NCBI GenBank assembly: GCA_017434455.1
Contig: JAFRFG010000014.1
Coordinates: 124,001 to 188,000 of the forward strand
Source: Thermoguttaceae bacterium
Lineage (GTDB): Bacteria > Planctomycetota > Planctomycetia > Pirellulales > Thermoguttaceae
Length of the DNA: 64,000 nucleotides
Direction: 5' to 3'
Part shown: in pieces, positions 11,150 to 27,828 of the stretch
Numbering within the stretch: position 1 is the first letter of the stretch
How the letters are laid out: each line of letters opens with the position of its first letter
Made by a program: the position numbers and the translations under genes
The notes under the pieces: model-generated
What the model was told of the DNA's origin: nothing
Seen by the model: only the letters and a program-made list of their open reading frames with translations
Database searches by the model: none

Positions 11150-14100
11150 ATGCGCCGTACCCCTTCGATCCTTTCCCCGGTGTTGTTCTTCGTCCTGTGC
11201 CTTCTCGCTCCCCTAGGTGCCGCCGAGATCACGCTGACCGCCCCGGACGACGGCGCGCTGGTATCGCTGGCCCCGCCGGCCCAAAGCCGGTACCTCACCC
11301 CCGGCGAGCGGGGCTTTGGGTGCGACTACCACATCGGGGAGCTGCGCGATCATGGCCAGCGCGCCGACCGACCGCTGCCGATCGAGCTGGCGTGGCGCCT
11401 GGAAGACGGCGACGCCCAAGCGGCCGAGCCGGCCGCGTTCACTGTTGAAGTTGACACCTCGGATCAGTTCACCGACCCGATCACCGTCACGACGGCCGAA
11501 AACAGCTGCCGGGTGGATAACCTCGATATCGGGACCGACTACTTTTGGCGCGTCCGCGCGGGCGGGAGTATCTCGCCGGTGGGGCACTTCACCACGGCGG
11601 CGATTCTGCCGCGCTGGATCCACCTGAGCAAGGGGATCGTCAACGTTCGCGACGCCGGTTACTGGCCGGCCGCCGGGAACAAACGGGTCAAGCCGGGAAT
11701 GATCTTCCGCGGCGGCGAGCTCGACAATCACTACGAACTGGCCGAGAAAAGCAAAACATTCCTTCTCGAAAAGCTCGGCATCAAGACCGACTTCGACCTT
11801 CGGGGGCCCGGTGAAACGGGGGACCCGGCCGAGTACGTCTGCCCCCTGGGGGATAATGTCCAGTGGCTGAACTTCGTGACGCGGGGGTACGCGGGGGCCT
11901 TTACCTCGAAGGGACGCGCCGTCATGCGCGATATCTTCCAGGCGCTGGCCCGTCCCGAGATCTACCCGATCTATCTGCACTGCCGCGGCGGCGCCGACCG
12001 AACCGGGACGGTGATCTTCCTTCTTCAGGAGATCTTGGGGGTGAGCGACAGCGACGCGTTCACCGATTTCGAGCTGACGACCTTCTCCCCGTCGGGAATC
12101 CGGTACATCCGGCACGATCACGCGCAGCGGACATTCCTGGAGCTGAGCCGCTACGGATCCGCCGAAGAACCGCTTTCGGTCAAATGCGAGCGGTACCTCC
12201 TTGATATCGGCGTGACCCCCGAGGAGATCGCGGCGATCCGCGCCACCCTTTTGGAGGACATGCCCGCGATGGCCGGCAGCGGCCCGGTTCTTTTGACCCC
12301 CGCCGAGGGGGAAAGCGTCTCGGTCGCCCCTCCGGCGGCGGTACCGTACCGGACGCCGCGGCAGCGCGGCTGGGATACCGACTACCCGATTTCCGAGATC
12401 AACCCCGACAATACCGACCGCACCCACCCGCCCGCGGTGACGCTCCGCTGGTCGTGGCCGGCCCCGGCGCGCTTTACCGTCGAGGTGGCCGCCAAAGAAG
12501 ATTTCTCCGACGCGATTGTTCTCCACAGCGAAACAACGAGCGTCGAGGTACGCAACCTCGCCCCCGGCACCCTCTACCACTGGCGCGTCACCGCCGGGGG
12601 GATCGGCGGGGGGAACCGCTCGGCGGCGGGGCATTTCCGCACCGAGCCGCAATTGCCCCGATGGTACGATATCCCGGGCATCGCGAATGTCCGCGACGCG
12701 GGGGGATGGCTCACCGCCGACGGCCGCCGCGTCAAAGAGGGGATGGTCTTCCGAGGGACCCAGCTCGACGGGGAGTTCGCCATCACGCCCGAGGGGCGCG
12801 ACTACATGGTTCACACCCTTGGGATCAAAACCGATATGGATCTGCGCCGCGACGCCGAAGTCGGCGACCCGAAAAAAACCACCGGCCGCCCCCTGGGGGA
12901 CGAGGTTGTCTGGGCCCACGCCCCGGTCCTCGCCTATACGGACGGGTTCGCCGCCGATCAGCTCCCCCGCTGGCGCGAGGCGTTTAAGGTCCTCGCCAGG
13001 CCGCAGACCTACCCGGTTTACATCCACTGCTACGGCGGCGCCGACCGGACCGGGGAGATCTGCCTGCTGCTCAAAGCGATCCTGGGCGTGAGCGACAGCG
13101 ACCTGTGCGCCGACTACGAGCTGACGACGCTGATGCGCTTCGGGATTCGGTATATCCACACCGACTATTTTGAGGCGATGATCGCCGGATTCAACAAGTA
13201 CGGCACCCCGGAGGAGCCCCTTTCGGTCAAGTGCGAGCGGTTCCTGCTCGATATCGGGGTAACGCCCGAGGAGATCGAGACGATCCGCGCCACCCTTTTG
13301 GAGGACGCGCCCCAAGCCGTCCCGGTCCTGGAGACCCCGGCCGAAGGGGAAAGTGTCTCGGTCGCCCCGCCGGCGGCGGTGCCGTACCAATCGCCGCAAG
13401 AACGCGGCTGGGATACCGACTACCCGATCCAACAGATCAATCCCGACGGTGCCGACCGGACCCAGCCCAAGGCGGTGACGCTTTCGTGGTCGTGGCCGGA
13501 AGAAAGTTACTTCACCGTCGAGCTGTCGGCCAAGGAGGATTTCTCCGAAGCACTGATCCTGCACAGCGAGACGACGACCGTCCAGGCGCGCAACCTTGCC
13601 CCCGATACGCTGTACTATTGGCGGGTCACCGCCGGGGGGAAGTGCCGCTCGGCGGTGGGGCATTTTCGGACCGAGCCGCAGCTCCCCCGCTGGTTCGATA
13701 TCCCGGGGGCCTCGAATGTCCGCGACGCGGGGGGATGGCCGACCGCCGATGGCCGCCGCGTCAAAGAGGGGATGATCTTTCGGGGGACTCAGCTCGACGG
13801 GAAACACGCCATCACGCCCGAGGGGCGCGACTATATGGTTCACACCCTCGGGATCAAAACCGATCTGGATCTGCGCGGTCCCAGCGAGGTTGGGGATCCA
13901 AACGTCAAGACCGGCCGCCCGCTGGGCGATGAGGTCGAATGGGTGAATATCCCGGTGGCCGCCTACAAAGATGTGTTCACCGAGGAGGGGCAGCGCCCCC
14001 GCTGGCGCGAGATCTTCAGTACCCTGGCCAAGCCGCAGACCTACCCGGTCTATATCCACTGCTGGGGCGGCGCCGACCGGACCGGAACACTCTTTCTGCT

Positions 14101-14347
14101 TCTGAAAGGCATCCTGGGCGTGAGCGACAACGACCTGTGCGCCGACTACGAACTGACGACCCTGACGATCTTCGGAATTCGGTACATCCACACCGAACTT
14201 TTTGAGGGGATGCTCGAGCAGCTGAACCGATACGGCACCGCCGAGGAACCGATGTCGGTCAAATGCGAGCGGTTCCTGCTCGATATCGGGGTGACGCCCG
14301 AGGAAATCGAATCGATCCGCGCGATTCTTTTAGAGGATCAGCAGTAA
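11150..14347 (+). CDS. Secreted protein with three tandem FN3-like + tyrosine/dual-specificity phosphatase units
   Basis: 1065 residues with a Sec signal peptide (cleavage near A25). Three repeats of about 345 residues follow. Each has an FN3-like beta domain ('TLYHWRV.AGG') and then a phosphatase of the Y_phosphatase3 type, beginning with NVRDAG. Each ends in a CX5R signature: HCRGGADRTG at H277-C278-R284, HCYGGADRTG at H626-C627-R633, and HCWGGADRTG at H970-C971-R977. All three catalytic Cys/Arg pairs are intact. The enzyme presumably dephosphorylates phosphorylated substrates outside the cytoplasm; whether protein, lipid or sugar phosphate is unknown. Repeat 3 is much closer to the single-unit gene at 24271 than to repeat 1, so duplication was stepwise. 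Start ATG 11150 has CGAGG upstream. Confidence 0.85.
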   Translation: MRRTPSILSPVLFFVLCLLAPLGAAEITLTAPDDGALVSLAPPAQSRYLTPGERGFGCDYHIGELRDHGQRADRPLPIELAWRLEDGDAQAAEPAAFTVEVDTSDQFTDPITVTTAENSCRVDNLDIGTDYFWRVRAGGSISPVGHFTTAAILPRWIHLSKGIVNVRDAGYWPAAGNKRVKPGMIFRGGELDNHYELAEKSKTFLLEKLGIKTDFDLRGPGETGDPAEYVCPLGDNVQWLNFVTRGYAGAFTSKGRAVMRDIFQALARPEIYPIYLHCRGGADRTGTVIFLLQEILGVSDSDAFTDFELTTFSPSGIRYIRHDHAQRTFLELSRYGSAEEPLSVKCERYLLDIGVTPEEIAAIRATLLEDMPAMAGSGPVLLTPAEGESVSVAPPAAVPYRTPRQRGWDTDYPISEINPDNTDRTHPPAVTLRWSWPAPARFTVEVAAKEDFSDAIVLHSETTSVEVRNLAPGTLYHWRVTAGGIGGGNRSAAGHFRTEPQLPRWYDIPGIANVRDAGGWLTADGRRVKEGMVFRGTQLDGEFAITPEGRDYMVHTLGIKTDMDLRRDAEVGDPKKTTGRPLGDEVVWAHAPVLAYTDGFAADQLPRWREAFKVLARPQTYPVYIHCYGGADRTGEICLLLKAILGVSDSDLCADYELTTLMRFGIRYIHTDYFEAMIAGFNKYGTPEEPLSVKCERFLLDIGVTPEEIETIRATLLEDAPQAVPVLETPAEGESVSVAPPAAVPYQSPQERGWDTDYPIQQINPDGADRTQPKAVTLSWSWPEESYFTVELSAKEDFSEALILHSETTTVQARNLAPDTLYYWRVTAGGKCRSAVGHFRTEPQLPRWFDIPGASNVRDAGGWPTADGRRVKEGMIFRGTQLDGKHAITPEGRDYMVHTLGIKTDLDLRGPSEVGDPNVKTGRPLGDEVEWVNIPVAAYKDVFTEEGQRPRWREIFSTLAKPQTYPVYIHCWGGADRTGTLFLLLKGILGVSDNDLCADYELTTLTIFGIRYIHTELFEGMLEQLNRYGTAEEPMSVKCERFLLDIGVTPEEIESIRAILLEDQQ

Positions 14348-14370
14348 AAGAAAGTGGGGGGTATCCATAA

Positions 14371-14404
14371 AAAACGGGGGGCCTAAATGGCCTCCCGTTT
14401 TTGT
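14371..14404. terminator. Bidirectional intrinsic terminator
   Basis: AAAACGGGGGGCC TAAA TGGCCTCCCGTTTTT forms a strong hairpin with an A-run before and a T-run after it. It closes the phosphatase gene (+) and, from the other side, the vsr end of the defence operon. Confidence 0.85.
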
Positions 14405-14458
14405 TTAGTGCTTTCCCCCTGTCTTTACGAATAGTGTTTTTCCTCTGTGGATGTGCCC

Positions 14459-14881
14459 TTAATCCTTGGATATAATTGTCTTGACTAATTTTTGCATAGT
14501 CAAATCAAAGTTTGATTTCTTCAGCTCGCATTCCCAAATCACGATAACCCTAAGCCCCATTTGGGTTAATTCCGCATAATGCTTTCGATCACGGGAAGCA
14601 TTCCCTTCGATCTTCTTGGTCCAATACTCGGCATTGTTTTTCGGCCAAACAAAGCTGCTGCATCCCTCGTGCTTATGCCAAAAGCACCCATTGATAAAAA
14701 TAACGGTCTTGTTCTTGGGAAGGTAAATGTCCGGCTTCCCGGGGAGCCGAGCATCATTTTTACGATAGCGAAATCCTTTTGAGAAGAGATACAATCTGAC
14801 CTGTTTCTCTGGTTTCGTGTCCTTGCTGCGTATATGGGACATGTTATAGCTACGGACTTCCGGTGAGTGATTGTCCGCCAT
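14459..14881 (-). CDS. vsr: Very short patch repair endonuclease (Vsr)
   Basis: 140 residues. From ATG 14881 the catalytic residues fall at the same numbers as in E. coli Vsr: D51 in LPGKPDIYLP, and H69 in NGCFWHKHEGC. Conserved NAEYWTKKIEGN and RVIVIWECEL stretches follow. Vsr nicks 5' of T in T:G mismatches that arise from deamination of 5-methylcytosine, and typically travels with a Dcm-type methylase, as here. I prefer ATG 14881 to the in-frame GTG at 14890 because GAGGTGA sits five bases upstream of 14881. It is the last gene of the island operon, 29 bp after the methylase stop. Confidence 0.95.
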   Translation of the reverse strand: MADNHSPEVRSYNMSHIRSKDTKPEKQVRLYLFSKGFRYRKNDARLPGKPDIYLPKNKTVIFINGCFWHKHEGCSSFVWPKNNAEYWTKKIEGNASRDRKHYAELTQMGLRVIVIWECELKKSNFDLTMQKLVKTIISKD

Positions 14882-14910
14882 AAACGTCACCTCTTTTGAA
14901 TGATCACCAT

Positions 14911-16524
14911 CTACTTGCTGACCTTCTTTAATTGATTGGCCAGGGTTTTCGCGATGGCCTGGGCCAGGATCGGCGGGACCGCGTTTCCCACCTGTTGATA
15001 TTGCTCATCCTTTTTCCCCATAAACACGAAACTGTCAGGAAAAGTCTGGAGCCGAGCCGCCTCTCTGATACTGATGGCGCGATCCCTTACGGGATGAATC
15101 CACATGGATTTCCGGACGTTAACCACAGTCGGAGAAGGCTGATCATAATCAAGTCTGCAATAGACCGTTTTCTGCGTTCGTGATACATCAGTATATGTGT
15201 TCGTCTTTAGCTTGTTATCCAGATCGTGGAAATTTTCTCCTTGCTTTAGTGCCCTAAACCTCTGCATAGCAGTATCAGTGGTTCTCGTGATAATATGGTT
15301 CTTCAGCAGTTTCGAGTTTCGCAGTTTCTTGCCTAGTTCACTGATTGTTTTAGGCTTTTTCAGATGAATCCCAATATCATCACTAATGTCATAAACCGGG
15401 TCAACATCCTCAAGATCACCAATTGCATCACGGACCGTTAGATATCGAGACTCATCAATCCGCCCCAGAGGGAGGGTAATCTTGCCAGCAATACTCTTCT
15501 TGATGCCGATCATAACAAAGCGCATCCGTTTTTGGGGGGCTCCATAATTTGCGGCGCAGAGTACACTGGAATTGATTGAATACCCATCATCCCCTTCACC
15601 GAGCATCGCTTTTATATAGTCCAGCACGGCAAAAGAGCGAATCTCCGCAAAGAGACCGTTCTCCGACGAGTAACGATCAACAACAAGATGATTTTCGAAT
15701 ATCTCGGCTGCATGCATTATCATTCGACGATACAAAACAGCCGCCTCGATTTTTTCCTTAAGCTGAACAGATCGTAATCTGCCTCCATAATAATCCAGGA
15801 TGGCAGAATAAGCCTTAGCATCAGCCCTTATGATGGGGGAATCTTCCTCTCTAATACGGATCGACGCCGTTTTGAGGAGGTTTCTTTTGTATTTAAGGAG
15901 CGCCCCTTCCAGCTTCTTTGCGTTCTTTGATGCCTTATAAATAATATTGAGAACAGGATAGTCCTGCGTCAATCCTAGATACGGCTTGATTCCTCCCTTT
16001 CGCCGCACTATATCAATTGCACCGTCGAAGGAATATTTCGGGTCCAGGAGGGGTATTCTCGAGATTTTTGTCTCGATGGCACTCCCATTCAGGAGATCAA
16101 TATCGAACCTGGAAAGATAAAAGCGATGTATATCGGAGCGCAGCATGCCGACATTCTCCATGACAAACGCTTTCGGGTTCAGCGCCTTAATTGCGCGTAC
16201 ATACTCCTTCACCAGCGTGTTATTATGACTGACAGCCGTGTTTTTTTGCCGGTTGGCATTTGAAAAGCCCTGACACGGAGGACCACCGATCACAACATCT
16301 ATGGGACCGTAGAGCTGATCAATTTCGGAATAGTCAGCGGTACAGACGTCTCCTCGCACATCAACGTTCGGATGATTTCTCTTATACGTTGACTGCATTG
16401 TGGGGTTATTCTCATAAGCGACCTTAATGCAATATTTCCCACTTTGAAGAAAACCGGTGCTAAGACCACCGGCGCCAGCAAAAAGGTCGACTACGGATAA
16501 CAGATTGCTGTCAGCTTTAATCAT
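14911..16524 (-). CDS. C5-cytosine DNA methyltransferase (Dcm family)
   Basis: 537 residues. Motif I is DLFAGAGGLSTG (13-24). Motif IV is GGPPCQGFSNA, with catalytic C84, and motif VI is MENVG with E123. Motif VIII is APQKRMRFVMIG, and motifs IX/X are REAARLQTFPDSF and QVGNAVPP. Between motifs VI and VIII there is an insertion of about 150 residues, which makes it longer than the common 330-420. The enzyme methylates cytosine at C5 and would protect host DNA against the island's nuclease components. Its ATG overlaps the AIPR stop by four bases (ATGA), so the two are translationally coupled. Confidence 0.95.
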   Translation of the reverse strand: MIKADSNLLSVVDLFAGAGGLSTGFLQSGKYCIKVAYENNPTMQSTYKRNHPNVDVRGDVCTADYSEIDQLYGPIDVVIGGPPCQGFSNANRQKNTAVSHNNTLVKEYVRAIKALNPKAFVMENVGMLRSDIHRFYLSRFDIDLLNGSAIETKISRIPLLDPKYSFDGAIDIVRRKGGIKPYLGLTQDYPVLNIIYKASKNAKKLEGALLKYKRNLLKTASIRIREEDSPIIRADAKAYSAILDYYGGRLRSVQLKEKIEAAVLYRRMIMHAAEIFENHLVVDRYSSENGLFAEIRSFAVLDYIKAMLGEGDDGYSINSSVLCAANYGAPQKRMRFVMIGIKKSIAGKITLPLGRIDESRYLTVRDAIGDLEDVDPVYDISDDIGIHLKKPKTISELGKKLRNSKLLKNHIITRTTDTAMQRFRALKQGENFHDLDNKLKTNTYTDVSRTQKTVYCRLDYDQPSPTVVNVRKSMWIHPVRDRAISIREAARLQTFPDSFVFMGKKDEQYQQVGNAVPPILAQAIAKTLANQLKKVSK

Positions 16525-18605
16525 TTTACAAACCCCTCCTCGACAGCCCGTTCAAGCAAAGAGAGAAGGCGTTTGCTTTGAAAGGCATTCGGGATTTGAT
16601 TCGGTATTCTGCAGGCAACAGCCAGGGCCGTTTCATCTATCTTAGTGTTGAGGAGATGATTCTGAACAGCAAAATTTTCAAGTCTTTCCCACATCTCGAC
16701 AGGATAGCGGATTACTTCGGTTTGTGCAATGATTCCATTGACTTCTTTTTGATCTTTGCCTGCGTCACGATCAGCCTTTTTCTTCTCATCGGCAGTAATC
16801 AGACAGCTGCTCAAGTCATATGGGAGCGCATAATTGATCGTTTTGACCGCGGCCCAACAATCTTTGCGCTTGCACCACTGCGTAACGTTTGCAACCCCAG
16901 GATGTCGATATGGATCGGTTATATTAGCCAGAACCCTTTCAGCCAATTCAAGGAGAGCAAACCGAACAGGCTCTGGCAGGCTCTGACGGTTCCAGATGAT
17001 CATAAGATCGAGATCCCTGTCAGGGAACTGTTTCTGAATCAAAAGACGGAAAAGAGCAACGGTATAGTAAATAATGTTCGCCCGGTAACCTCCTTCATAC
17101 CATGACTGGTTCGGAATCGTATTCTCGAGATATTGAAACATCAGCAGAAGAGCAGCGGTAGACTGGAAATATCTTTCATTGAACTGCTGATCGTTAGCTT
17201 TCCACTCTTCCGTGATATAATTAGCAAAGTTACTAAAGTTGGTTTGCGCGCCCTTGCTGACAATATCAGGGTGGCCCATCCATGTATTGTGCACCTTGGC
17301 CAAGTCTGTTTTCTTAATAACCTGTTTCTTGGGATGCTGCAGTTCAAACTGCCTCTTCTGTGCCCTGGTCATACGCATTTGAGCCTGGAGATATTGACCT
17401 CTGACACGCTCGTAAAACCACTTTGTATCATGCTGTGAGCCGTCGACGGCCGGAGCAAACAACCTCCTCGATATCTGTTCCATTCGGCGATGGAACGGAT
17501 GAGAAGCAAAGAAGTCTGCATCGCTGACCTTGTTTTGCCTGTTGGAACAGTAGGAGATATTTTTAATCAATTCATCAGCTTCTTCCGGTGTAGATTCCTC
17601 TATATCTGTTAGTTTCATCTGGACATAAAGACCGTCCAATGGAACTTTATCGTTGAATCTGGAGTTCGAAATGGATGCTGTGGTCTGTCCTCCGTTGATG
17701 ATCTGAAAATCTTTGGCGTAAGTAATGAAACGCCCATTATGCGTAAGTTTCGTTTCGACTTTCATTGCCGTTGCGGCAATACCATTATTGAATGCAAAGA
17801 ACATTTGCGGAGTATTTTTTATCGTAGCGCGTATCTGTTTGTTTACAGCTACTTTCGTAGATAAGAATGACCGGACATTGCCCTCCAACAGTTTACTGCC
17901 ATACTTATCATAGATATCAGCCAGGACAGAACCTGGGATGACACCCAGGTAGCTCTTATATTTATCGTTTGCCACAGAACTAGCCTCTATGCAGGGAATT
18001 CCTTCCTCACAATATTCGGTGAAATCGATTTCAATGACTTGCCGTCCTTGCTCAGAACAACAAACATGGAACAGTCTGCCTATATCCCATATCTGCCCTT
18101 CTACAGGGATTCCTTCATAATCTTCGATTTCGACTGTTTTTATCAATGTGCTCATGTCAGCATCGGTGAAAATGAGCAGGCGGTACTTTCTGATATTCTT
18201 CTCGTTGATTCGCAGGAAGTCAACCAGATCTGCACACGGAGTGCTTATCTCAATCTCTTGATAGAGATTTGACTTTAACGCCGCGTCCAAGAAGACTGTG
18301 AGCTCACCGAAATCATGCGTTGCTTCAGTGTTGGTCAGCGTGCGATCCAGATCGTTGCCATCGTAGTTGGCGATGATGAGATTCATTGTATTATCGAATT
18401 CGTCGAACACATAGCCATCCACACGGTACTTGCTTCGTCCATAACGACCGATGTAGAAAGATGGGGAGAAGTCCGAGAGAACTTCTGCGTCGATCAAGTA
18501 TTGAGCTACTCTTTCGGCGAAGGCAGCACAGGAACCCTCGCCAGTAGCAGCGGCAGCAGCCTTGATATCCTGCAAAAAGTCATTCTTAAATTCAGTAAAA
18601 TCCAT
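16521..18605 (-). CDS. AIPR-family (abortive infection phage resistance) protein
   Basis: 694 residues. The family hallmark INGGQTTASI is present near residue 300, preceded by FFAFNNGIAATA, typical of AIPR proteins. The N-terminal part (residues ~55-80, YRVDGYVFDEF then LIIANYDG) looks like a beta-rich nuclease-type fold, but I cannot assign catalytic residues with confidence. AIPR proteins are found with restriction-like systems containing Z1 and GHKL ATPases and were named from a phage abortive-infection protein. It lies between the PD-(D/E)XK gene (12-bp gap) and the methylase (4-bp overlap), so it is part of one operon. Confidence 0.85.
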   Translation of the reverse strand: MDFTEFKNDFLQDIKAAAAATGEGSCAAFAERVAQYLIDAEVLSDFSPSFYIGRYGRSKYRVDGYVFDEFDNTMNLIIANYDGNDLDRTLTNTEATHDFGELTVFLDAALKSNLYQEIEISTPCADLVDFLRINEKNIRKYRLLIFTDADMSTLIKTVEIEDYEGIPVEGQIWDIGRLFHVCCSEQGRQVIEIDFTEYCEEGIPCIEASSVANDKYKSYLGVIPGSVLADIYDKYGSKLLEGNVRSFLSTKVAVNKQIRATIKNTPQMFFAFNNGIAATAMKVETKLTHNGRFITYAKDFQIINGGQTTASISNSRFNDKVPLDGLYVQMKLTDIEESTPEEADELIKNISYCSNRQNKVSDADFFASHPFHRRMEQISRRLFAPAVDGSQHDTKWFYERVRGQYLQAQMRMTRAQKRQFELQHPKKQVIKKTDLAKVHNTWMGHPDIVSKGAQTNFSNFANYITEEWKANDQQFNERYFQSTAALLLMFQYLENTIPNQSWYEGGYRANIIYYTVALFRLLIQKQFPDRDLDLMIIWNRQSLPEPVRFALLELAERVLANITDPYRHPGVANVTQWCKRKDCWAAVKTINYALPYDLSSCLITADEKKKADRDAGKDQKEVNGIIAQTEVIRYPVEMWERLENFAVQNHLLNTKIDETALAVACRIPNQIPNAFQSKRLLSLLERAVEEGFVK

Positions 18606-18617
18606 GTTTCTGCCTCC

Positions 18618-19553
18618 TTATTTAGCCCAGGAATCGATGCTGGGCAAATCTATCTGGTACTCAGCATTCACGATCTCTTTCGGCATGCCATCACGAACCA
18701 TTCGTGGAAAGATTTCATTGACCTCATAATGTGTTTTGTCCGTGATAACAAAGTGAATGTTATCGTACTCTTGGGTATCAAAGTAATCGACGGATGCCAG
18801 TTTCAGGACAAGTTCTTCGACAAGTCCCGGATTATCTGTTAGTCTCGAAATCACGTCATGTACAAGGTTGTATAACGTAAGTGCTCCGACTTGCTGACGG
18901 GCGCACTTGTCTATCCGGTATATAACCAACTCCCCTGGAACCTCACAATCCAGCTGTTCAATAGAAGTAATGGTGACAGATACTGATGATGTGCCGGTTG
19001 CTTTGATTTCATACCAGCCCTCTGAATAAAAGAAATCCTGATCTGATCCTTCAGGCCCTACCCACCCTGACAGGGCTTCTGAGGCAGGCATTCCCTTCTC
19101 AATCATTTCTTTTAAAAAAGAAAGCTCGGCAATCAGTCCTTTTTGAGCGTTTAAGCTGAGCAGCGAACTGCGCTTGTGATCAAGCAGCTTCAGCCATTGT
19201 GCGTATCTGCGCAAAACCTTAGCAAGCGCGTCCTTTTGTGTAGTCTCCTCTTTTGAGTATTCTATGATGTTGCTTGACATCGATATGAATACGTCTTCCT
19301 GGGCTCGGTTTACGAGCGTAAACGAGATGGCGTATTTCCCATCTCGTCGCTGGTTGCAGGCGGTTTCGATGCTCCGAGAGGAAGTAATACTGTCAACTGG
19401 CAGATCTGACACGATAACGATAGACTTCTGGTCCTTCGTTACGTACCGTACATACCACTCCAGCGCGTGCGGGATCGCAAGCTGAAGAGCCCCTCCCCTG
19501 CGATAACCTATATGGTCCCATTTCTGACGCAGTTCTGCCTCGTAAGTATTCAT
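18618..19553 (-). CDS. PD-(D/E)XK-type protein (DUF4420 family)
   Basis: 311 residues. The motif GPEGSDQDFFYSEGWYEIKA places D173, E182 and K184 in a D-x8-E-x-K arrangement, with E143 in the preceding helix (GLIAELSFL). That is a complete PD-(D/E)XK nuclease site and matches the DUF4420 family, known beside Z1 ATPases. It is the best candidate for the DNA-cleaving subunit of the island. Its ATG abuts the stop of the Z1 gene with no gap, which suggests coupled translation and roughly matched amounts. No other domain is visible. Confidence 0.8.
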   Translation of the reverse strand: MNTYEAELRQKWDHIGYRRGGALQLAIPHALEWYVRYVTKDQKSIVIVSDLPVDSITSSRSIETACNQRRDGKYAISFTLVNRAQEDVFISMSSNIIEYSKEETTQKDALAKVLRRYAQWLKLLDHKRSSLLSLNAQKGLIAELSFLKEMIEKGMPASEALSGWVGPEGSDQDFFYSEGWYEIKATGTSSVSVTITSIEQLDCEVPGELVIYRIDKCARQQVGALTLYNLVHDVISRLTDNPGLVEELVLKLASVDYFDTQEYDNIHFVITDKTHYEVNEIFPRMVRDGMPKEIVNAEYQIDLPSIDSWAK

Positions 19554-22283
19554 TTAGTCATCCTCATAACCTTCGTCAGAGAAATTAATCCAATTACGCA
19601 GTTCTACGAGATTAACTTTGTAATTGGCTACACGGGTGTCGTTGTCATCACGTGGAAAACCAACCCCAAGGGCAAAGAGGAAGGGAGGGAGTCCTGAACT
19701 ATCACCTTCGTACTTCGCATCTAAAATATGAAGCATGAGAATGGGATCGCGGTCTCTGGTGAGAAACGCTTTATCAGAAACATTGCTCTTACCGGTTTCG
19801 GACTTAAATGCTCGCTTCGCATCATCTATTTCACCACGGGTTAGACCAATTCTGGTGCACCCACCGGATCCGACCCTAACTTTTGTACCGCTGACACTCA
19901 GCATTTTAGCGTCGACGGAGATCTTTCGGCTTTCCGTACTCTGGATTCTAAGCGTTTCTGAGCCACATTTAAGGTCGCCTTGGTAAGGCTCGCCATCACC
20001 GCTGTTAAACAGAACCACATCCCACCCATGATTCCAGGGCCTGGATTCTATAGATTCTGCCAGCGCTCTTCCATTAAAGCTCAGATGCCACGGGTGCGTC
20101 TCGAAATCTCGAAGAAGCTGAGCAATTGCGTCACCGGGAACATGCTTCCAATAGTAATGTCCTTGGGTTCGCTCCTTATCATTCAGCCGATCTCCATGCT
20201 CTGACAAAGAATCGACAAAGTTTTTGAAAACCCTTTCGTTTTCGTTAAGTATTGAAAGCGATGCTTTCAGTCGGGGGGTTTCAAGCAGATGTCCAGAAAC
20301 TGTAACCGGGAACGTGATATCCGTTGCGGTACGCATTTTGTTTCTGGCCGTCACAATTAATGCGCCTGGATCCTGACGTACTTTTAAGCCAAATTCCAAA
20401 GGTGTCTGATGCGCATTTCGCATCTTGATGATCTCGTCTTTAAGTTCGACGGCAGCACGATTAATCTGTCCGTACCAATCAAATGCCTCTTCAGACATCC
20501 AGACTTTAACAAGATCCTGATAGTTGGGACGATAGCCAAACCAGCGTCCCATTTGCATAAGGGTGTCATACATCTTTGTGTTGCGGTGAAAATAAGACAC
20601 ACAGAGTCCCTCGAGAGTCAGACCGCGTGACAAACTGTTGCCGCCTACCGCAATTACTCGCAGTCCGTCTTTCTTGTGATTAAAATAATCCAGACTAGCC
20701 GTACCTGTTTTCATGTTGACCGCGCGTACATCAATCGGAGCAACAGACCTATAAAGGTACTTTCTAAGAACCTCGTCCCAGGCGATCTTGCCAATGCCAG
20801 AGAGATTGAATTTCTCCCAAATGTGGTGCAATGCTCGGATCGAAGGAATCTGTTCGGCCTTGTCAACAGGGAGTTTCGAGTAATTCCTAAGATCAGACTT
20901 GACCCGTTCCAGCCAGCAGCTAAGAATATCAGCAATTTGGTTCTGGACTGCGGTAAAAAGACTGATGTGAACCATCATTGAACGATGTTCAGTTGTATCT
21001 CCACGAAAATCCCGTATGGCGTTGACGAGGAGAAAATAATTGGCCGCTTCATAGAGATCATCCGGCAAACCAGAAACCACAAGCTCCTTCTTGTGCCCAT
21101 CTGGGAAGTATCTCTGCAAATCAAAAATATCGATCGGTCTAATCATGTCAGAAAGATCACCGTCATCACCAAAGATCCGATCTGCACCAATATAGTCTGT
21201 TGGAGGGGACAGCGCATAGATGAAATCCGCCGGGAACAAATCTTCATCGTTTCCGGGGTCAATGAAGATATTCGCGAAAGGAGTCGCAGTAACGCCCAAG
21301 TAAGTGGTCCTGCTGAAGAGAAGCAACAACCTTCTGATACAATCATTTATGGCTGTAGGCAGCGTATCAGGGTCTTTCGTGTTAACAGAAGCATTATCTG
21401 CCTCGTCATCGATCAATAACAGCGGGAGATCAATCTTCCCCACATCATTTTGTGTATTGTTCAAGGTCAGCCAGTTAATAAGATTGTTGAGAATGCGCTT
21501 GTTCTTCTTTACTACTAGGATGACTGGACAATTAACGTTCTCTATGCCAAGATCATTGCTGCGAAGCACACCGCTGTCAAAGTCCTTGGTGACAGAGGTG
21601 AAAGACACTATCTTCTTCGACTTGCCATACCGCCCTACCCCCACAAATCGGTTTTTATATCTTCGAAACGGGTTGGTATCGAGGAAATATTCACTCTTGC
21701 GACCGGAGCATTCCGCATCCAGACGTTCCTGAGTCTGTTTGCGGAGGTTTTCCTGAAGCCCGGCCAGAATGATGATGATTCGATAACCAGTGTCAGCAGC
21801 TTTATTGCAGACTGCAGTGTAGTTTGCTGTCTTTCCGGACTGAACATCACCAAGAATAAGTCCCTTAATGGCGAAGTGGTCTTCAGAAGGGTCACCGCAC
21901 AGATCCAGTATCTCATCAGAGATTTTGCCGAGATTGGCTGTTACGCGCGGATTCCAATGCTTAACTTCCTCGAGATACTTCTTGTATCGATTCCAAAAGA
22001 AGAAATCAAATGAAGCACGTTTTGCGGGAAGCCATGACTGGTGCCCATTATTTCGGTCGTTGATATAAACACCAACATCCATTTGGATTACGAGAGTCTG
22101 CCTGAGCCGTGTCAAAATCTCGGCGAATTCCTGATCTGTGACCGGCATCAGCATAGATGTTTTATCTCTAAAGAGAGCTGCCTTTTCAATGAACTCTTCT
22201 TCAGTAGGGGGGACCTCCTTATATACGGAGTTTATGTAGGCGGATATCGTATTTTCCAGTTGTTCAACGTTCAGATTAGCCAT
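19554..22283 (-). CDS. Z1-domain superfamily II-like ATPase
   Basis: 909 residues. Walker A GDVQSGKT is at 145-152, Walker B LLIDDEAD at 289-296, and a motif-III-like GVTATPFANIF at 330-340. The C-terminal motor half has GGNSLSRGLTLEGL (547-560) and MGRWFGYR (578-585), the signature of the Z1 domain. This family is known from restriction-modification-like operons with GHKL ATPases, where it is thought to act as the DNA-translocating or remodelling motor. Its start overlaps the end of the GHKL gene by eight bases. Codon use and GC are lower than in flanking genes, in line with transfer. Confidence 0.9.
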   Translation of the reverse strand: MANLNVEQLENTISAYINSVYKEVPPTEEEFIEKAALFRDKTSMLMPVTDQEFAEILTRLRQTLVIQMDVGVYINDRNNGHQSWLPAKRASFDFFFWNRYKKYLEEVKHWNPRVTANLGKISDEILDLCGDPSEDHFAIKGLILGDVQSGKTANYTAVCNKAADTGYRIIIILAGLQENLRKQTQERLDAECSGRKSEYFLDTNPFRRYKNRFVGVGRYGKSKKIVSFTSVTKDFDSGVLRSNDLGIENVNCPVILVVKKNKRILNNLINWLTLNNTQNDVGKIDLPLLLIDDEADNASVNTKDPDTLPTAINDCIRRLLLLFSRTTYLGVTATPFANIFIDPGNDEDLFPADFIYALSPPTDYIGADRIFGDDGDLSDMIRPIDIFDLQRYFPDGHKKELVVSGLPDDLYEAANYFLLVNAIRDFRGDTTEHRSMMVHISLFTAVQNQIADILSCWLERVKSDLRNYSKLPVDKAEQIPSIRALHHIWEKFNLSGIGKIAWDEVLRKYLYRSVAPIDVRAVNMKTGTASLDYFNHKKDGLRVIAVGGNSLSRGLTLEGLCVSYFHRNTKMYDTLMQMGRWFGYRPNYQDLVKVWMSEEAFDWYGQINRAAVELKDEIIKMRNAHQTPLEFGLKVRQDPGALIVTARNKMRTATDITFPVTVSGHLLETPRLKASLSILNENERVFKNFVDSLSEHGDRLNDKERTQGHYYWKHVPGDAIAQLLRDFETHPWHLSFNGRALAESIESRPWNHGWDVVLFNSGDGEPYQGDLKCGSETLRIQSTESRKISVDAKMLSVSGTKVRVGSGGCTRIGLTRGEIDDAKRAFKSETGKSNVSDKAFLTRDRDPILMLHILDAKYEGDSSGLPPFLFALGVGFPRDDNDTRVANYKVNLVELRNWINFSDEGYEDD

Positions 22284-23745
22284 GGTTTATCTCCCTTCTC
22301 AAACTCTCAAAGACTTCAGGAAAAGATGAAAAAGGTTCGACATTATGCATTCTGTCAAGCAAGGCAAGCCTCTGGGCGTTATTGCTGCAGCTGTCAAGCA
22401 TAACTGCAAGCGAATCCTTTATCTGTGCCGCATCCTGATCCTGATCATTAATCAGTTTCTCATCTTCATTGAGGTCGACATAGAGCTGATTCAAGGGCAG
22501 TCCCCGCTCGATTTGCTCTAATAACGAAAATACGAGCTTTTGTTGCGCTGGAGATTTATCTATAATCAGCTTAACCAGAGGGTGATCTCGGTTAATCTCG
22601 TAATACACGGCCCCCTGACGATTCCTCATTCTATTCCAGATATGGATATTCTTATCACTAACTTCGCGTTTCCCTCTGACTTTCCAAGTCCGTTTGCTTT
22701 TCTCAGCAACGCGTTCAATAATGACCCCCAAGTTCTTCCGCACTTCCGCCGGAGGCAAGGCAGACGATTTCTTGATGTCAAGAGTCCAGAGATCGTCGAG
22801 AGAGTTCGGTATATCAACCTGGATTCGGGCCAACTTAGACAAATCTCCCTGCGGCATCATCCTGAACCATGTCCCCCACGTGAGCAGGCGTTTATTGCGG
22901 TAGACAAAGAATCCCTGCTGTTTTCTGAGGCCTTCCTTGCCGCCGAGTTCCTTTATTTCTTCTGGTGTCATACGTGAGATGTGCGGCAGAATGTAGGGCC
23001 GGACAACTATCTCTTGTTCGCGTATAATGAGTTTTTCATCGTCCATTACCTTAGTGCTCTTGTCTTTCAAAAAAGGGTCGGCAGGCAATACCGGTTCATA
23101 GTTGATCGAGAGCTTAAATTTGGTGATGCCAGGTTCACCGCTAAGATACCTGTGATAAACAAGCGACAAATGAGAACGAACACTGTCGATCTTACTGCCG
23201 AGAGTATGCTCAAATTTTGCCTCTCCGACCTTCATACGGTCCAGGTTCTGCCATACAACAAGGGTCCCTGACTTCTGATCCTCGAGGTACTCAACACCCG
23301 GCACCTCGTTTATTTCGCTTGGTTCAAGGATCAAAAGCGACCAATCACCTACATCAGACACATGATCAATATCCCACCTGCGGCCTAAAATCGTGTCGCC
23401 TTGCTTCGTGACCACAGTTAGCGTACGGCACTGAGACAGAGATGCTGTTTTGAGTCCCAAGCCAAAACGCCCCAAGTCCTTAGAATCTCTGGTCTCAATT
23501 GGGCTGCGGCTGCCGTATTGCATAGCGCGATCCAACTCCGCTTCGCACATGCCCTTTCCATTGTCCAGAATGGAGATGTAGGCTCCGGCTTTGTCATACG
23601 GGAAAAAGAAAATGTTGACGGCGGTCGCGCTTGCCGCAACGCTGTTGTCGATAATATCAGCGACGGCCGCTTCGAGCGAATAGCCAATAGCACGAGTCGA
23701 CTCAATCAGGGTTGGCGCATAGGGCGGCAGATTCTTGGTTCTCAT
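22276..23745 (-). CDS. MutL/MORC-like GHKL ATPase of a restriction-like system
   Basis: 489 residues. The Bergerat fold is clear: an N-box in EAAVADIIDNSVA (25-37), a G1 box DNGKGM (61-66) and a G2 box GRFGLGLKTA (92-101). The C-terminal half is the S5-like plus coiled region found in MORC-type proteins rather than a kinase domain. Iyer, Abhiman and Aravind described such ATPases in restriction-modification-like operons, as relatives of eukaryotic MORC. It would be an ATP-driven clamp on DNA. It is the first long gene of the operon. The likely promoter is the TATAAT at 24062-24067 on the minus strand. Confidence 0.88.
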   Translation of the reverse strand: MRTKNLPPYAPTLIESTRAIGYSLEAAVADIIDNSVAASATAVNIFFFPYDKAGAYISILDNGKGMCEAELDRAMQYGSRSPIETRDSKDLGRFGLGLKTASLSQCRTLTVVTKQGDTILGRRWDIDHVSDVGDWSLLILEPSEINEVPGVEYLEDQKSGTLVVWQNLDRMKVGEAKFEHTLGSKIDSVRSHLSLVYHRYLSGEPGITKFKLSINYEPVLPADPFLKDKSTKVMDDEKLIIREQEIVVRPYILPHISRMTPEEIKELGGKEGLRKQQGFFVYRNKRLLTWGTWFRMMPQGDLSKLARIQVDIPNSLDDLWTLDIKKSSALPPAEVRKNLGVIIERVAEKSKRTWKVRGKREVSDKNIHIWNRMRNRQGAVYYEINRDHPLVKLIIDKSPAQQKLVFSLLEQIERGLPLNQLYVDLNEDEKLINDQDQDAAQIKDSLAVMLDSCSNNAQRLALLDRMHNVEPFSSFPEVFESLRREINHG

Positions 23746-24270
23746 CGATCTAAAGTCACTTCTTTCTAACGAACAGAAACAAAACTATCCTAAGACAGTC
23801 CCTTGCCCCTTTCCTCAGATGATCATTATGCTTTTTCTGCGCAAACAATCTGCTCGATATACTGACATGCTGCAGACAACTTTCACCGAGACATGATGTG
23901 TATCCTGTCCCTGGACTGAGCCAGCCGGCCGAGGATCACGGCACCATATATTATCGAGCGTGTCCATAATCACACCTTCTTAACCCCCCCGAATATGCGA
24001 AGGGGATGGTTTCGCCGAGATACCCCCACGGATCCATCATTAAAAGGGCCAACCGAGGACAATTATACAATATTACCCGCACATATACAGAAGATTCGAG
24101 GAAAAAATAGTGATTTTAGGGATTTTTCCTGAGGAGAGTACACTAAGGTACACAGTCTCTGTTCCCGGAAACGCCTGTAGCGGGGGCGTCCCCATTCGGG
24201 TAGAATGGCCCCAATCGTAACCACAAAACAACCTTCCCCCCCAAAAAGCCGCTTTCAGAGGTTTACGCCG
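23746..24270. promoter_or_regulatory. Intergenic region between defence operon and single-unit phosphatase, with divergent promoters
   Basis: 525 bp. On the minus strand GTATAATTGTCC (TATAAT at 24062-24067) can drive the defence operon. On the + strand TAGCGG (24178-24183), 17 bp and TAGAAT (24201-24206) can drive the phosphatase. From about 24041 onward the sequence resembles the secA/phosphatase intergenic region 10911-11080. Shared pieces include TTAAAAGG, the ATTATAC box, AATAGNGNTTTTAGNGATTTTT and CCTNTAGCGG. One possible small coding frame lies at 23818-23967. No tRNA or inverted repeats marking an element end were found. Confidence 0.5.
23818..23967 (-). CDS. Possible small protein upstream of the defence operon
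   Basis: A 49-residue frame starts at ATG 23967 with AAGGTGTGA a few bases upstream, and ends at TGA 23818-23820, 72 bp before the GHKL gene. It lies between the putative operon promoter and the first long gene. Residues are unremarkable (starts MDTLDNIW, ends RRKSIMII), with four cysteines and no recognised domain. It could be a leader peptide, a degraded regulator or chance. Confidence 0.25.
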
Positions 24271-25386
24271 ATGCGCCGTCCCCTTCCCTTCCTTTCCCCG
24301 GCTTGGTTTTTTACCCTGTGGGTTCTCCTGCCGCTGGCCGCGGCATCGTCAGATGACTCCGTCCCCGTCCTCGTGACCCCGGCCGAGGGGGAAAGCGTCT
24401 CGGTCGCGCCGCAGCCGGCGGTGCCGTACCTTTCGCCCGAGGAGCGCGGCTGGGATACCGACTACCCGATCGAGCAGATCAATCCCGACCATACCGACCG
24501 TTCCCGGCCCAAGCCGGTGACCCTCTCGTGGTCGTGGCCCCATGGGGGGCACTTCACCGTCGAGCTGGCGGCCAATGAGGACTTCTCCGACGCGGTGGTC
24601 CTAAAGAGTGATTCCGAGACGCTCCAGGCGCGCAACCTTGCCCCCGATACCCTCTACTCCTGGCGGGTCACCGCCGAAGGGGGGGTGCGCTCGGCGGCGG
24701 GGCATTTCCGCACCGATGTTCAGATCCCCCGCTGGTTCGATATCCCGGGGCCCTCGAACGTCCGCGACGTCGGGGGGTGGCCGACCGCCGACGGCCGCCG
24801 GGTCAAAGAGGGGCTGGTCTTTCGGGGGACCCAGCTGGAGGGGAGGTTCGAGATCACCCCCGAGGGGCGCGACTATATGGTTCACACCCTTGGGATTAAA
24901 ACCGATCTGGATCTGCGCGGCCCCAGCGAGGTCGGGGACCCGAACGTCAAGACCGGCCGCCCGCTGGGCGATGAGGTCGAATGGGTGAATATTCCGGTCT
25001 CCGCCTACAAAGATGTATTCACCGAAGAGGGGCAGCGCCCCCGCTGGCGCGAGATCTTCAGTACCCTGGCCAAGCCGGAAACCTACCCGGTTTACATTCA
25101 CTGCTACGGCGGCGCCGACCGGACCGGAACGCTCTGCCTGTTTCTCAAGGCGATCCTGGGGGTGAGCGACAACGACCTGTGCGTCGACTACGAACTGACG
25201 ACCCTGCGCTTCGCGGTTCGGCACATCCACATCGACGCTTTCGAGGCGATGCTCGAGGAGCTGAACCGATACGGCACCGCCGAAGAGCCGATGTCGGTCA
25301 AATGCGAGCGGTTCCTGCTCGATATCGGGGTGACGCCCGAGGAGATCGAATCGATCCGCGCGATTCTTTTGGAGGATAAGCCGTAA
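24271..25386 (+). CDS. Secreted FN3-like + tyrosine/dual-specificity phosphatase (single unit)
   Basis: 371 residues from ATG 24271, which gives MRRPLPFLSPAWFF, a signal peptide matching that of the large paralogue; an upstream in-frame ATG at 24205 lies at the promoter and is rejected. One FN3-like domain (residues ~30-150) is followed by the phosphatase with NVRDVGG and the CX5R loop HCYGGADRTG. The second half is almost the same as repeat 3 of the gene at 11150 (for example EVEWVNIPV, FTEEGQRPRWREIFSTLAK). So this gene and repeat 3 share a recent ancestor. Role as for the paralogue: an exported phosphatase of unknown substrate. Confidence 0.85.
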   Translation: MRRPLPFLSPAWFFTLWVLLPLAAASSDDSVPVLVTPAEGESVSVAPQPAVPYLSPEERGWDTDYPIEQINPDHTDRSRPKPVTLSWSWPHGGHFTVELAANEDFSDAVVLKSDSETLQARNLAPDTLYSWRVTAEGGVRSAAGHFRTDVQIPRWFDIPGPSNVRDVGGWPTADGRRVKEGLVFRGTQLEGRFEITPEGRDYMVHTLGIKTDLDLRGPSEVGDPNVKTGRPLGDEVEWVNIPVSAYKDVFTEEGQRPRWREIFSTLAKPETYPVYIHCYGGADRTGTLCLFLKAILGVSDNDLCVDYELTTLRFAVRHIHIDAFEAMLEELNRYGTAEEPMSVKCERFLLDIGVTPEEIESIRAILLEDKP

Positions 25387-25450
25387 GAGTAAACCCGGGG
25401 CTTTTGACGTTATCGGCGCCTGTCCTCTTGACCGAGGTACCCGGTATGAC

Positions 25451-25490
25451 TATTATGAAAAAAGGTGTGGGCACACCTTTTTTCATAATA
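25451..25490. repeat. Perfect 40-bp palindrome just before the AAA/DUF4143 gene
   Basis: Two 19-base arms, TATTATGAAAAAAGGTGTG and its exact complement, surround a central GG. The palindrome ends nine bases before the ATPase ATG at 25500. Inside it, GGTGT-GGGC-ACACC followed by T6 could act as an intrinsic terminator in either direction for the phosphatase gene. The perfect symmetry extends well past what a terminator needs, so an operator or mobile palindromic element is also possible. Confidence 0.85.
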
Positions 25491-25499
25491 GAGGGCGCT

Positions 25500-26753
25500 A
25501 TGGAGATTAAACGGGACATCTACCTGAACCGGCTGATCCGGCGGGAAAACAACGGGCTGGTCAAAGTCGTGACGGGGGTTCGCCGCTGCGGCAAGTCGTA
25601 CCTTTTGCTGCGTCTGTTTCATAACTACCTCTTGGACAAGGGGGTAAAAGAGGACCACATTATCGAGATCGCGCTCGATGACCGAAGTAATAAACCGCTG
25701 CGCGACCCCGACAATATGCTCCGATACATGAAAGAGCGGTTCGCCGACAGGGATACTTACTACATCATCCTCGACGAGGTGCAGCTTCTGGCGGAGTTCG
25801 AGGACGTGCTCAACAGTTTCATGCACATCCCCGGCGCGGATGTCTACGTGACGGGGAGCAACTCGAAATTTCTCTCCTCCGATCTGATCACCGAGTTTCG
25901 CGGCCGGGCCGACGAAGTACGGATCCACCCGCTTTCCTTCCGGGAATACTGCTCCGCCTTCCGGGGGAGCGCCGAGGAGGCGTGGGATGATTTTGTGACT
26001 TACGGCTCTTTGCCGCTGATCCTTTCCCGCCGGACGGCGGAAGATAAAGCACAGTATCTGACGTCGCTGTTTCAAAAGGTCTATCTCAGCGATATCGTCG
26101 ACCGCCACCGGGTACGCAACAGGGAGGAACTCGGCGAGCTGGTCGATATCCTCGCCTCCGCCGTCGGGTCGCTGACCAATCCGCTGAAGCTGACGAAGAC
26201 ATTCAAGTCGGTCAGGAACAAGACCATCAGTGATATGACGCTGAAAAAATACATCGATTATCTGACGGACGCCTTCCTGGTGAGCAAGGCGGTTCGTTAC
26301 GATATCAAAGGAAGAAAGTACATCGGTTCCCCGGCGAAATACTACTTTGAGGATGTCGGTCTGCGCAACGCGCGGCTGAATTTCCGGCAAATGGAAGAAA
26401 ACCACATTATGGAGAATATCATCTACAACGAGCTGCGTATCCTGGGGTATCGCGTGGACGTGGGGGTGGTGAAACAGTTCGGCAAAAACAGCGAGAACAA
26501 AACGACGAAAAAACAGCTTGAGGTCGATTTTGTCGCGGCGCGCGGCAGTGAGAAGTACTACATTCAGTCCGCCTTCGCGATCGATTCCCAGGACAAACGG
26601 GAGCAGGAGGAACGTTCGCTCGCCGCCCTCGGCGACTCTTTCAAAAAGATCATCGTCGTGCGCGATAACATCAAAGCGCGCAGGAACAACCGAGGGATCG
26701 TGACGGTCGGGATTCGCCATTTTCTGCTGGATGAAGAGAGCATGAATCTGTAG
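25500..26753 (+). CDS. AAA-type ATPase with C-terminal DUF4143 domain
   Basis: 417 residues from ATG 25500. Walker A GVRRCGKS is at 26-33 and Walker B YYIILDEVQ ends at residue 95; sensor 1 is VYVTGSN (115-121). The second half is the DUF4143 domain, ending with a PD-(D/E)XK-like stretch (QLEVDFVAARG ... YYIQ). This family is common and often variably present in gut and rumen bacteria; its biological role is not established. An alternative start inside the palindrome (ATG 25456, MKKGVGTPFF) would place the hairpin within the coding region. The gene is followed by a clear terminator. Confidence 0.85.
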   Translation: MEIKRDIYLNRLIRRENNGLVKVVTGVRRCGKSYLLLRLFHNYLLDKGVKEDHIIEIALDDRSNKPLRDPDNMLRYMKERFADRDTYYIILDEVQLLAEFEDVLNSFMHIPGADVYVTGSNSKFLSSDLITEFRGRADEVRIHPLSFREYCSAFRGSAEEAWDDFVTYGSLPLILSRRTAEDKAQYLTSLFQKVYLSDIVDRHRVRNREELGELVDILASAVGSLTNPLKLTKTFKSVRNKTISDMTLKKYIDYLTDAFLVSKAVRYDIKGRKYIGSPAKYYFEDVGLRNARLNFRQMEENHIMENIIYNELRILGYRVDVGVVKQFGKNSENKTTKKQLEVDFVAARGSEKYYIQSAFAIDSQDKREQEERSLAALGDSFKKIIVVRDNIKARRNNRGIVTVGIRHFLLDEESMNL

Positions 26754-26784
26754 AAGCGAATCGGAAAAGGTGCTCTTTAAGACA

Positions 26785-26819
26785 AAACGAGGAGCAGATA
26801 CCTGCCCCTCGTTTTTTTA
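26785..26819. terminator. Intrinsic terminator (bidirectional)
   Basis: AAACGAGG(A)GCAG ATAC CTGC(C)CCTCGTTTTTTT forms a hairpin with a T7 tail, placed between the converging ATPase gene (+) and NagB-like gene (minus). Confidence 0.85.
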
Positions 26820-26846
26820 TCGCGGATAATCTCGGCGCTTTTTTGT

Positions 26847-27776
26847 TTAGTGCATCTCGGCCCCGACGGTCTTGATGGCCGGACGCCAGTAGTGGAAGTG
26901 GACGTTCGGGTGATCGGCCAGCAGCGACATCGGAACGGCGGAATCGGGGATCTTCTTGGCGATCATCCAGGCCGACAGCCGCATGCCGAACGGGTTGTCG
27001 TGGGTCCCGGCCTGCCAGATGCTCACCTTCTTCGCCTTCCAGGTCTCGACCGGGCCGACCGTCGCCGCCTCGCGGGCGACGTTGGCGACGTAGCCGCCGT
27101 TGCTCGTCCGGGCGTTCTGCAGCACGGTAATCGGGTGAAGCTCGGTCACGCGGGTCGCCAGTTTGCGGTATTCCTCCGGGGTCGGCGGGTTGTCTTTGTA
27201 CTTCCCCTTGCGGCGGACCGGGTCGTTAAAGGCCCAATGCTTCGTATCCCCCTGCCCCCCCTGCATGATGGCGCACTCGATCTGGTCGTACGTCTTGCTG
27301 TACGCCTTCAGGTCGCCGGAGGGGAAATGAATATTCTCTTTCGGCATTCGGAGCTTTTTGTCGATCCGGTTGAAGCACATCTCGAAGTCGGCCTTGGCGA
27401 AGGAAAGCGGATGGTCGATCCCGACCGGCTTGCCGTTTTCGACCCACTCGTCCATCCCCCAGAAATGGGCGTACCTTAAGTTGATGCCGAGCGAATTGAC
27501 GATCCGGGCCACCAGCGGGAGCTGTTCGGTCGGGCCGATCGGGCCGCACAGGCCGACCGGGTTGTCGGCGGTCGCCTTCTGCCACGACTCGACGTATTCC
27601 AGCGCCTCGGCCAGATAAAAATCCTCGAGCGTCTCGTGATAGTGGACGGTAAACCCGGGACGGGAGAGCTTAAAGAGGGACTTTTCGGTCAGTTTGGCGG
27701 CGTCGGAAAGGATCTCCGGGTCGAGGGTGGTGTAGTCCCACCATTCCGGGGCGACTTGGCTGAGCGGTCGGGCCAT
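26847..27776 (-). CDS. Glucosamine-6-phosphate deaminase/isomerase-like protein
   Basis: 309 residues, NagB/SugarP_isomerase fold. WGMDEWV with a downstream HPLSF matches the NagB 'MDEY..HP.SY' region, and [14 protein letters not shown] matches the catalytic 'GGDGHIAFNEP' loop. The D-G-H of classical NagB is altered to G-D-T-K-H, so activity may differ. If active it would convert GlcN-6-P to fructose-6-P and ammonia, feeding amino sugars into glycolysis. GGAG lies upstream of ATG 27776. It is divergent from a PIG-L deacetylase gene, which makes an amino-sugar pathway plausible. It has a strong sigma70-type promoter at 27829-27857. Confidence 0.78.
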
Positions 27777-27828
27777 TTTTTACTCCATCATCTGCGTTTT
27801 TTTAGGGAAGCGAACGCGCTTATCCTAG

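Follow-up and report, generated by a model that had tools for sequence, protein, structure and literature searches.

A six-gene MzaBCDE-like operon with a C5 methylase and Vsr in a Thermoguttaceae genome: a candidate methylation-guarded restriction system

Results

A six-gene operon that encodes homologues of MzaB, MzaC, MzaD and MzaE, followed by a C5 cytosine DNA methyltransferase (Dcm) and a Vsr endonuclease, was confirmed in the window (the whole 64,000-nucleotide stretch analysed, positions 124,001 to 188,000 of contig JAFRFG010000014.1 from a Thermoguttaceae bacterium). The operon is probably a horizontally acquired, methylation-guarded and ATP-dependent restriction system, MZA-like in its MzaB-C-D-E core, supplemented with Dcm and Vsr and devoid of MzaA. 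It is a new member of a kind that was predicted in 2008 and published as a putative 'Type II' system in 2022. Its value lies not in surprise but in two testable points: tolerance of the core may require the methylase, and the target may be set by the N-terminal domain of MzaD.

Structure of the operon

All six open reading frames (ORFs) are intact and located on the minus strand, spanning 23745 to 14459. Domains of the six proteins were assigned with Pfam, and the E-values given below are from that search.

22276..23745, minus strand: MzaB-like MORC-type GHKL ATPase, the first gene, 489 aa (HATPase_c_3, 2.6e-35)
19554..22283, minus strand: MzaC-like Z1 SF2-type ATPase, 909 aa (Z1, 2e-75)
18618..19553, minus strand: MzaD-like DUF4420 protein, PD-(D/E)XK nuclease candidate, 311 aa (DUF4420, 2.3e-57)
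16521..18605, minus strand: MzaE-like AIPR protein, 694 aa (AIPR, 7.5e-97; AIPR_N, 8.1e-40)
14911..16524, minus strand: C5 cytosine DNA methyltransferase, 537 aa (DNA_methylase, 1.2e-59)
14459..14890, minus strand: Vsr T:G mismatch endonuclease, 143 aa (Vsr, 3.5e-31)
23746..24204: intergenic region upstream of the operon, 459 bp, presumed promoter side
14348..14458: 3′ boundary, lying between vsr and the neighbouring phosphatase gene; a ACGGGGGGCC/GGCCTCCCGT inverted repeat here is bordered by A and T runs (sequence read 14330-14470)

In gene order, the junctions measure −8, 0, +12, −4 and +20 bp, the fourth being a 4-bp overlap between the AIPR and dcm genes. The GC content of the operon is 46.3%, as compared with 63.0 and 60.6% in its flanks. 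The coordinates and gaps of the six co-directional ORFs, including the overlaps and the 0-bp junction, as well as the lower GC and the six gene identities, were thus as described in the original prediction; as to its wording of a 'defence island', the genes form a single operon and not an island made up of different systems. The upstream region (23746-24204) contains no ORF of >53 aa wholly inside it and no regulator gene was found there, while promoter-like sites across it were not more frequent than in shuffled sequence.

Relation to MZA and other known systems

PADLOC and domain searches, which had been proposed together with the original prediction, were run, and both PADLOC and NCBIfam matched the first four genes to MzaB, MzaC, MzaD and MzaE, all in one operon. 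The NCBIfam scores were 351 bits for MzaB (NF041932; 8e-105; cut-off 850), 490 for MzaC (8.4e-147; cut-off 1500), 118 for MzaD (4.7e-34; cut-off 420) and 308 for MzaE (1.8e-91; cut-off 1050). Since these amount to 28-41% of the equivalog cut-offs, the core represents a divergent relative rather than an equivalog of MZA, and the shortfall counts to some degree against carrying a restriction-modification function over to it. MzaA, a sigma-70-type protein by the NCBIfam definition NF041931, is absent: no large ORF is present in 23746-24204, and the neighbours of the operon are phosphatase genes.

The mzaABCDE set is a validated anti-phage system (Gao et al. 2020, as cited in PMC9523054). Homologues of MzaB, MzaC, MzaD and MzaE follow one another in the same order in the operon here, which differs in having no MzaA sigma factor and in carrying Dcm and Vsr; its core proteins are 21-35% identical to those of a named MZA locus (L011). 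No methylase gene is named for the validated set, which argues against restriction-modification. PMC9523054 also describes a putative 'Type II' defence system (Miller et al. 2022) with a core of Z1, PD-(D/E)XK, cytosine methyltransferase and AIPR, with which MORC is associated. By that account, this system is of broad taxonomic range and ~20% identical to mzaBCDE, harbours mzaA in only a few members, and has a transcriptional regulator as a frequent association but not as a core gene. All five of these proteins (Z1, PD-(D/E)XK, C5 methylase, AIPR and MORC) are found in the operon here, and the set is thus the same; the text of that paper names no Vsr gene for 'Type II', whereas the operon has one, and the regulator that often accompanies 'Type II' was not found upstream of the operon. 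A restriction-like system had been proposed for these genes and presented as open: the match to MzaB-E was missed, and with the 'Type II' set described in PMC9523054 the matter is less open.

An older account is that of Iyer, Abhiman and Aravind (2008; PMC2292703), whose third operon type combines MORC, Z1 and restriction endonuclease (RE)-fold genes with DCM, VSR and AIPR neighbours, as a prediction with neither system name nor experiment. The link to these operons drawn beforehand is well founded, and extends to DCM, VSR and AIPR in their list. The operon here shares with that type the MORC motif, the DThhQXuRhFG helicase, the RE-fold partner with its E-D-ExK residues and the DCM/VSR/AIPR complement.

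Of the systems that pair a Z1 ATPase with a C5 methylase, CglI is the closest mechanistic precedent for ATP-driven restriction. In CglI and NgoAVII, a Z1-domain ATPase and a C5 methylase are found together with a PLD-B3 protein as the nuclease; CglI hydrolyses ATP on DNA with unmethylated sites, exhibits translocase activity and requires ATP hydrolysis for cutting (PMC4267653, PMC5737866). Both share the Z1 ATPase and the C5 methylase with the operon here, yet they lack MORC, DUF4420 and AIPR. Moreover, no PLD or B3 match was found by Pfam in any of the six operon proteins, and a CglI nuclease with no relative in the operon speaks against restriction-modification. A second analogy is provided by M.Pin25611FIII of Prevotella intermedia, an active C5 methylase of G(m5C)WGC specificity; its gene belongs to a segment of five genes, and AIPR and Z1 proteins are encoded in the operon concerned (PMC5608340). 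The methylase alone was tested in that work, where it is listed as an orphan (PMC5608340); the activity of a GCWGC methylase beside AIPR and Z1 genes, as in the operon here, is consistent with restriction-modification.

Conserved residues of the operon proteins

The first protein had been described as a GHKL/MORC-like ATPase, and it can now be called MORC-type specifically. The MORC-specific S5 motif GhXhhpXXRhl, which Iyer and colleagues used to tell MORCs from other GHKL proteins (PMC2292703), is present in MzaB as G278-FFVYRNK-R286-LL, with G278, Y282, R283 and R286 invariant among 58 homologues. In a profile search against PDB sequences, its best solved relative was MORC2 (1e-10), ahead of MutL (6e-7), which was also outranked by MORC4 and MORC3; by these sequence comparisons MzaB is closer to MORC than to MutL. 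At residue 30 (window 23656-23658), all of the 58 homologues have Asp where the N-box of MORC2 has Glu. That Glu position is the expected catalytic base of a GHKL ATPase, so the ATPase activity of MzaB is not certain, which is a further point against an ATP-dependent restriction-modification function.

The assignment of a Z1 ATPase is borne out: the protein is a Z1 helicase and carries the exact motif of Iyer et al. (DTLMQMGRWFG in MzaC, fitting DThhQXuRhFG). Its Walker A (GDVQSGKT) and Walker B (DDE) motifs are intact, with VQSGKT and DDE invariant, and sequence search returned no significant solved relative. In MzaD, E143, D173, E182, K184 and Q200 are invariant among 70 homologues; the three residues singled out earlier as the nuclease site (D173, E182 and K184) are thus among them, and the PD-(D/E)XK site is intact. 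The AlphaFold2 model of MzaD has a pLDDT of 93, while there was no significant solved relative by sequence and nothing at E≤0.001 in the fold search. Matches of its N-terminal domain to YbjN and to chaperones of type III secretion, with E values of 0.016 or higher, were too weak to be used.

The methylase matches the dcm profile TIGR00675 (1e-52, NCBIfam) and exhibits the C5 motifs FAGAGG, GGPPCQGFS, MENV, QKRMR, REAARLQ and GNAVP; an insert of ~200 aa between motifs VI and VIII is common to its closest relatives. Vsr scores 143 bits with TIGR00632 (cut-off 98) and retains D54, GCFWH, the zinc-ligand Cys/His residues and the WEC motif.

Gene content of related loci and exchange of the methylase

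Gene content was determined by profile searches in 80 chromosomal loci from many phyla, kept out of >580 matches to an alignment query; as the loci were picked by similarity to the Z1 protein of the window, the counts apply to this part of the family and not to MZA as a whole. The B-C-D-E order is kept in 74 of the 80 loci, and since it recurs in this way across phyla, the operon is far from a chance arrangement. A C5 methylase is located ≤3 kb from the core in 75 loci (51 of 53 among those with full flanks), and the methylase partner assigned beforehand thus accompanies the core almost everywhere. Vsr is found ≤5 kb away in 55 of the 80 loci; where both Vsr and the methylase are present (58 loci), they are ≤500 bp apart in 48. 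MzaA, on the other hand, was found in none of the 80 related chromosomal loci. Seven plasmid loci all keep the B-C-D-E order, and one of them has MzaA together with a methylase. A copy of the operon in a Devosia plasmid (L015, 6396-13663) is decayed, with the ATPase, Z1 and AIPR frames each in pieces. The survey figures for the methylase and MzaA favour reading the family as methylase-guarded restriction, and near-constant association with a C5 methylase, the gene order and the conserved GHKL, Walker and PD-(D/E)XK residues speak for restriction-modification, as do the PADLOC and NCBIfam matches to MzaB-E and the core shared with the validated mzaABCDE system.

The main rival, which we regard as rather unlikely, is a methylation-independent defence of MZA type, in which MzaB-E would sense a phage protein, DNA ends or replication structures, AIPR or MzaD would kill the cell or the phage, and Dcm-Vsr would be a neighbouring cassette with its own role. 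It ranks first among the alternatives because MZA, cited as validated in PMC9523054, is defined without a methylase gene, and the abortive-infection annotation carried by AIPR proteins is in its favour. It also draws on the evolution of the methylase. Median identity is 0.37-0.38 for MzaB, MzaC and MzaE, indicating an equal rate, and 0.27 for the faster MzaD. Divergence of the methylase is loosely correlated with that of Z1 (Spearman 0.32, versus 0.65-0.68 for the other core genes) and its position requires 17 changes on the Z1 tree, from which frequent exchange of the methylase is concluded. In two loci (L034 and L041), Dcm (59%) and Vsr (58-60%) are close to those of the window and the core is distant (only 28-53%), thus Dcm-Vsr moves as a cassette; in a third (L021), the core is 42-62% identical and Dcm only 28%.

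Such independent exchange would be odd for a restriction-modification system in which the core and methylase share one target, unless the specificity part changes too: with a shared target, some part of the core must change along with the methylase. The methylation-independent reading, however, has to accommodate a C5 methylase that is nearly always close to the core where the flanks are complete, the 4-bp overlap of the AIPR and dcm genes and the repeated reacquisition of a C5 methylase, which argues that the core needs one.

Candidates for a co-varying core part were compared with the methylase. MzaD and Dcm gave a partial rho of 0.14 (P value=0.007), the best of four tests, which fell to 0.04 in the closer subset. 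For the target-recognition region of Dcm, the partial r was 0.28 (P value=0.005; 200 permutations) with MzaD residues 1-135, as compared with 0.13 with the nuclease half of MzaD, and 0.27 and 0.33 with two stretches of MzaC. The target-recognition region may thus weakly track the N-terminal domain of MzaD; this is taken as a hint only, because the MzaC stretches give similar or higher values, the pairs are non-independent and many stretches were examined.

One related locus, in a Lachnospiraceae metagenome-assembled genome (MAG; L030, 8522-17372), is a mosaic relative to the window (AIPR 69%, methylase 57%, Z1 46% and DUF4420 31% identical), with the ATPase frame split in two. It suggested a joint transfer of AIPR and Dcm, for which no support was found overall (partial rho 0.06; P value=0.14).

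The AIPR protein

AIPR had been put forward as a second effector beside DUF4420. This role is not established, as the protein carries no canonical nuclease motif and its PDB fold matches fall below significance. An orthodox PD-(D/E)XK nuclease was rejected, since the N-terminal domain has no conserved D...(D/E)xK triad, with only D63 conserved (94%).

A wider version of the idea, in which reading or cutting of DNA by a restriction core falls to its AIPR subunit and MzaD is accessory, is quite improbable in our judgement. It gains from the many invariant polar residues of AIPR, which in the homologue alignment include NVR, NNG and NGxQTT-type motifs, N355 and Q357. Sequence search found no significant solved relative, and the AlphaFold2 model (pLDDT 89.9) was used in fold searches. 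No PDB match was below 0.05 (best E 0.055), let alone at E 0.001; many of the sub-threshold matches (AF1548, EXO5, McrC, EndoMS, Can2, SduA, FokI and HamA) are proteins that we take to have a restriction-endonuclease fold, a theme that is suggestive only. In a viral library, the top-scoring matches came from one phage, namely its AIPR protein and another, uncharacterised protein; a protein associated with DNA-sulfur modification was matched at E 0.06. The N-terminal domain of DndB has been placed in the AbiU1/AIPR family (PMC3506569). Against this version stand the missing triad and the level of the PDB matches, while the full invariant triad sits in MzaD.

Proposed mechanism

For the preferred reading, that of methylation-guarded restriction, the following division of labour is proposed. 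The methylase would protect self sites, and MzaB-E would detect an unmethylated site. MzaC may move along DNA by means of ATP, as has been proposed for the Z1 protein of CglI, and MzaB may be a clamp gated by ATP, closing so as to hold DNA or to loop it, by analogy with MORC and MutL; these clamp and motor roles are inferred from the protein families. Cutting would be performed by MzaD, as its PD-(D/E)XK site suggests, and AIPR may be an assembly or regulatory subunit, a role as second effector being less likely. Vsr, given the family it belongs to and its position next to the methylase, would repair the T:G mismatches that arise from deamination of 5mC, thus serving the methylase and not the attack on phage.

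A more specific version is speculative and, in our view, unlikely: MzaBCDE may be an ATP-dependent restriction machine of its own type, in which the target is read by the N-terminal domain of DUF4420 aided by the C-terminal end of Z1, so that a change in that domain would let cores take on new C5 methylases, and in which AIPR is a DndB-related subunit whose basis is a degenerate restriction-endonuclease-like domain and which connects the motor with the state of methylation. If true, MZA would be the sigma-factor-bearing branch of a methylase-guarded family. A literature search found no paper that explains the joint action of the MORC ATPase, Z1 ATPase, nuclease and AIPR. MORC proteins matter in eukaryotic gene silencing, and a bacterial relative whose DNA cutting can be read out would thus be useful as a model.

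Origin and genomic surroundings

In the Z1 tree, the protein of the window is nested among Bacillota proteins, its nearest relatives being from gut Oscillospiraceae/Clostridia MAGs (SH-aLRT 100, 98 and 99 for successive sets), and the host, itself a gut bacterium, probably acquired the operon from a donor among gut Bacillota. A planctomycete host is likely from SecA, whose closest match among the genomes tested is in a Thermoguttaceae MAG (61% over the full length); of 16S rRNA, only a broken fragment was present. In the same genus, a sister species has an uninterrupted locus without the operon, with SecA, a two-repeat phosphatase gene, a DUF4143 ATPase gene and the following genes; it matches window 7046-13306 at 94.6% and 24360-28608 at 90.4%. 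This empty site identifies the operon as an acquired block.

The operon is flanked by tandem ~1-kb tyrosine-phosphatase/fn3-type repeats (window 11150-14347 and 24205-25386). Four such repeats are present in the window genome, with the operon between the third and the fourth, and two in the sister species; with an identity of about 82-90%, the repeats on either side of the operon may have allowed it to be inserted or lost by recombination. Neither an integrase nor a transposase was seen adjoining the operon. Matches to MzaB are patchy, being found at any strength in 6 of 100 genomes including that of the window, and another genome of the host's family has a diverged locus with the same six-gene order, whose MzaB-like protein is ~36% identical.

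That the operon is inert in its host, as a recent passenger or a chimera of metagenome assembly, is very unlikely: low GC, absence from the sister species, Bacillota as nearest relatives, an insertion between imperfect ~1-kb repeats and a genome of 66 contigs at 91.7% completeness would fit it, but all six frames are open and retain conserved motifs, the operon has native sequence to its left and right in a contig of 240 kb, identity between the repeats around it is only about 82-90% and the same gene order recurs, diverged, within the host's family.

An N6/N4-type DNA methyltransferase gene (5788-6957, plus strand) adjoins secA where GC drops locally to 53%, and no restriction partner was recognised near it in the window; the match of the sister contig stops with secA, 286 bp before that contig ends. 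An AAA_14/DUF4143 ATPase (25404-26753, plus strand) matches the PADLOC candidate PDC-S01 (4.9e-115), and its gene is probably older than the arrival of the operon, as it is conserved in the sister species, where the site is empty. A second low-GC block (31118-35333, minus strand; 40% GC) harbours two GmrSD/DUF262-type genes (760 and 618 aa), and the second of the encoded proteins matches the PADLOC HEC-06 and Orf5 models; since this protein has only weak partial matches among other genomes of the genus, the block is probably another acquired defence locus.
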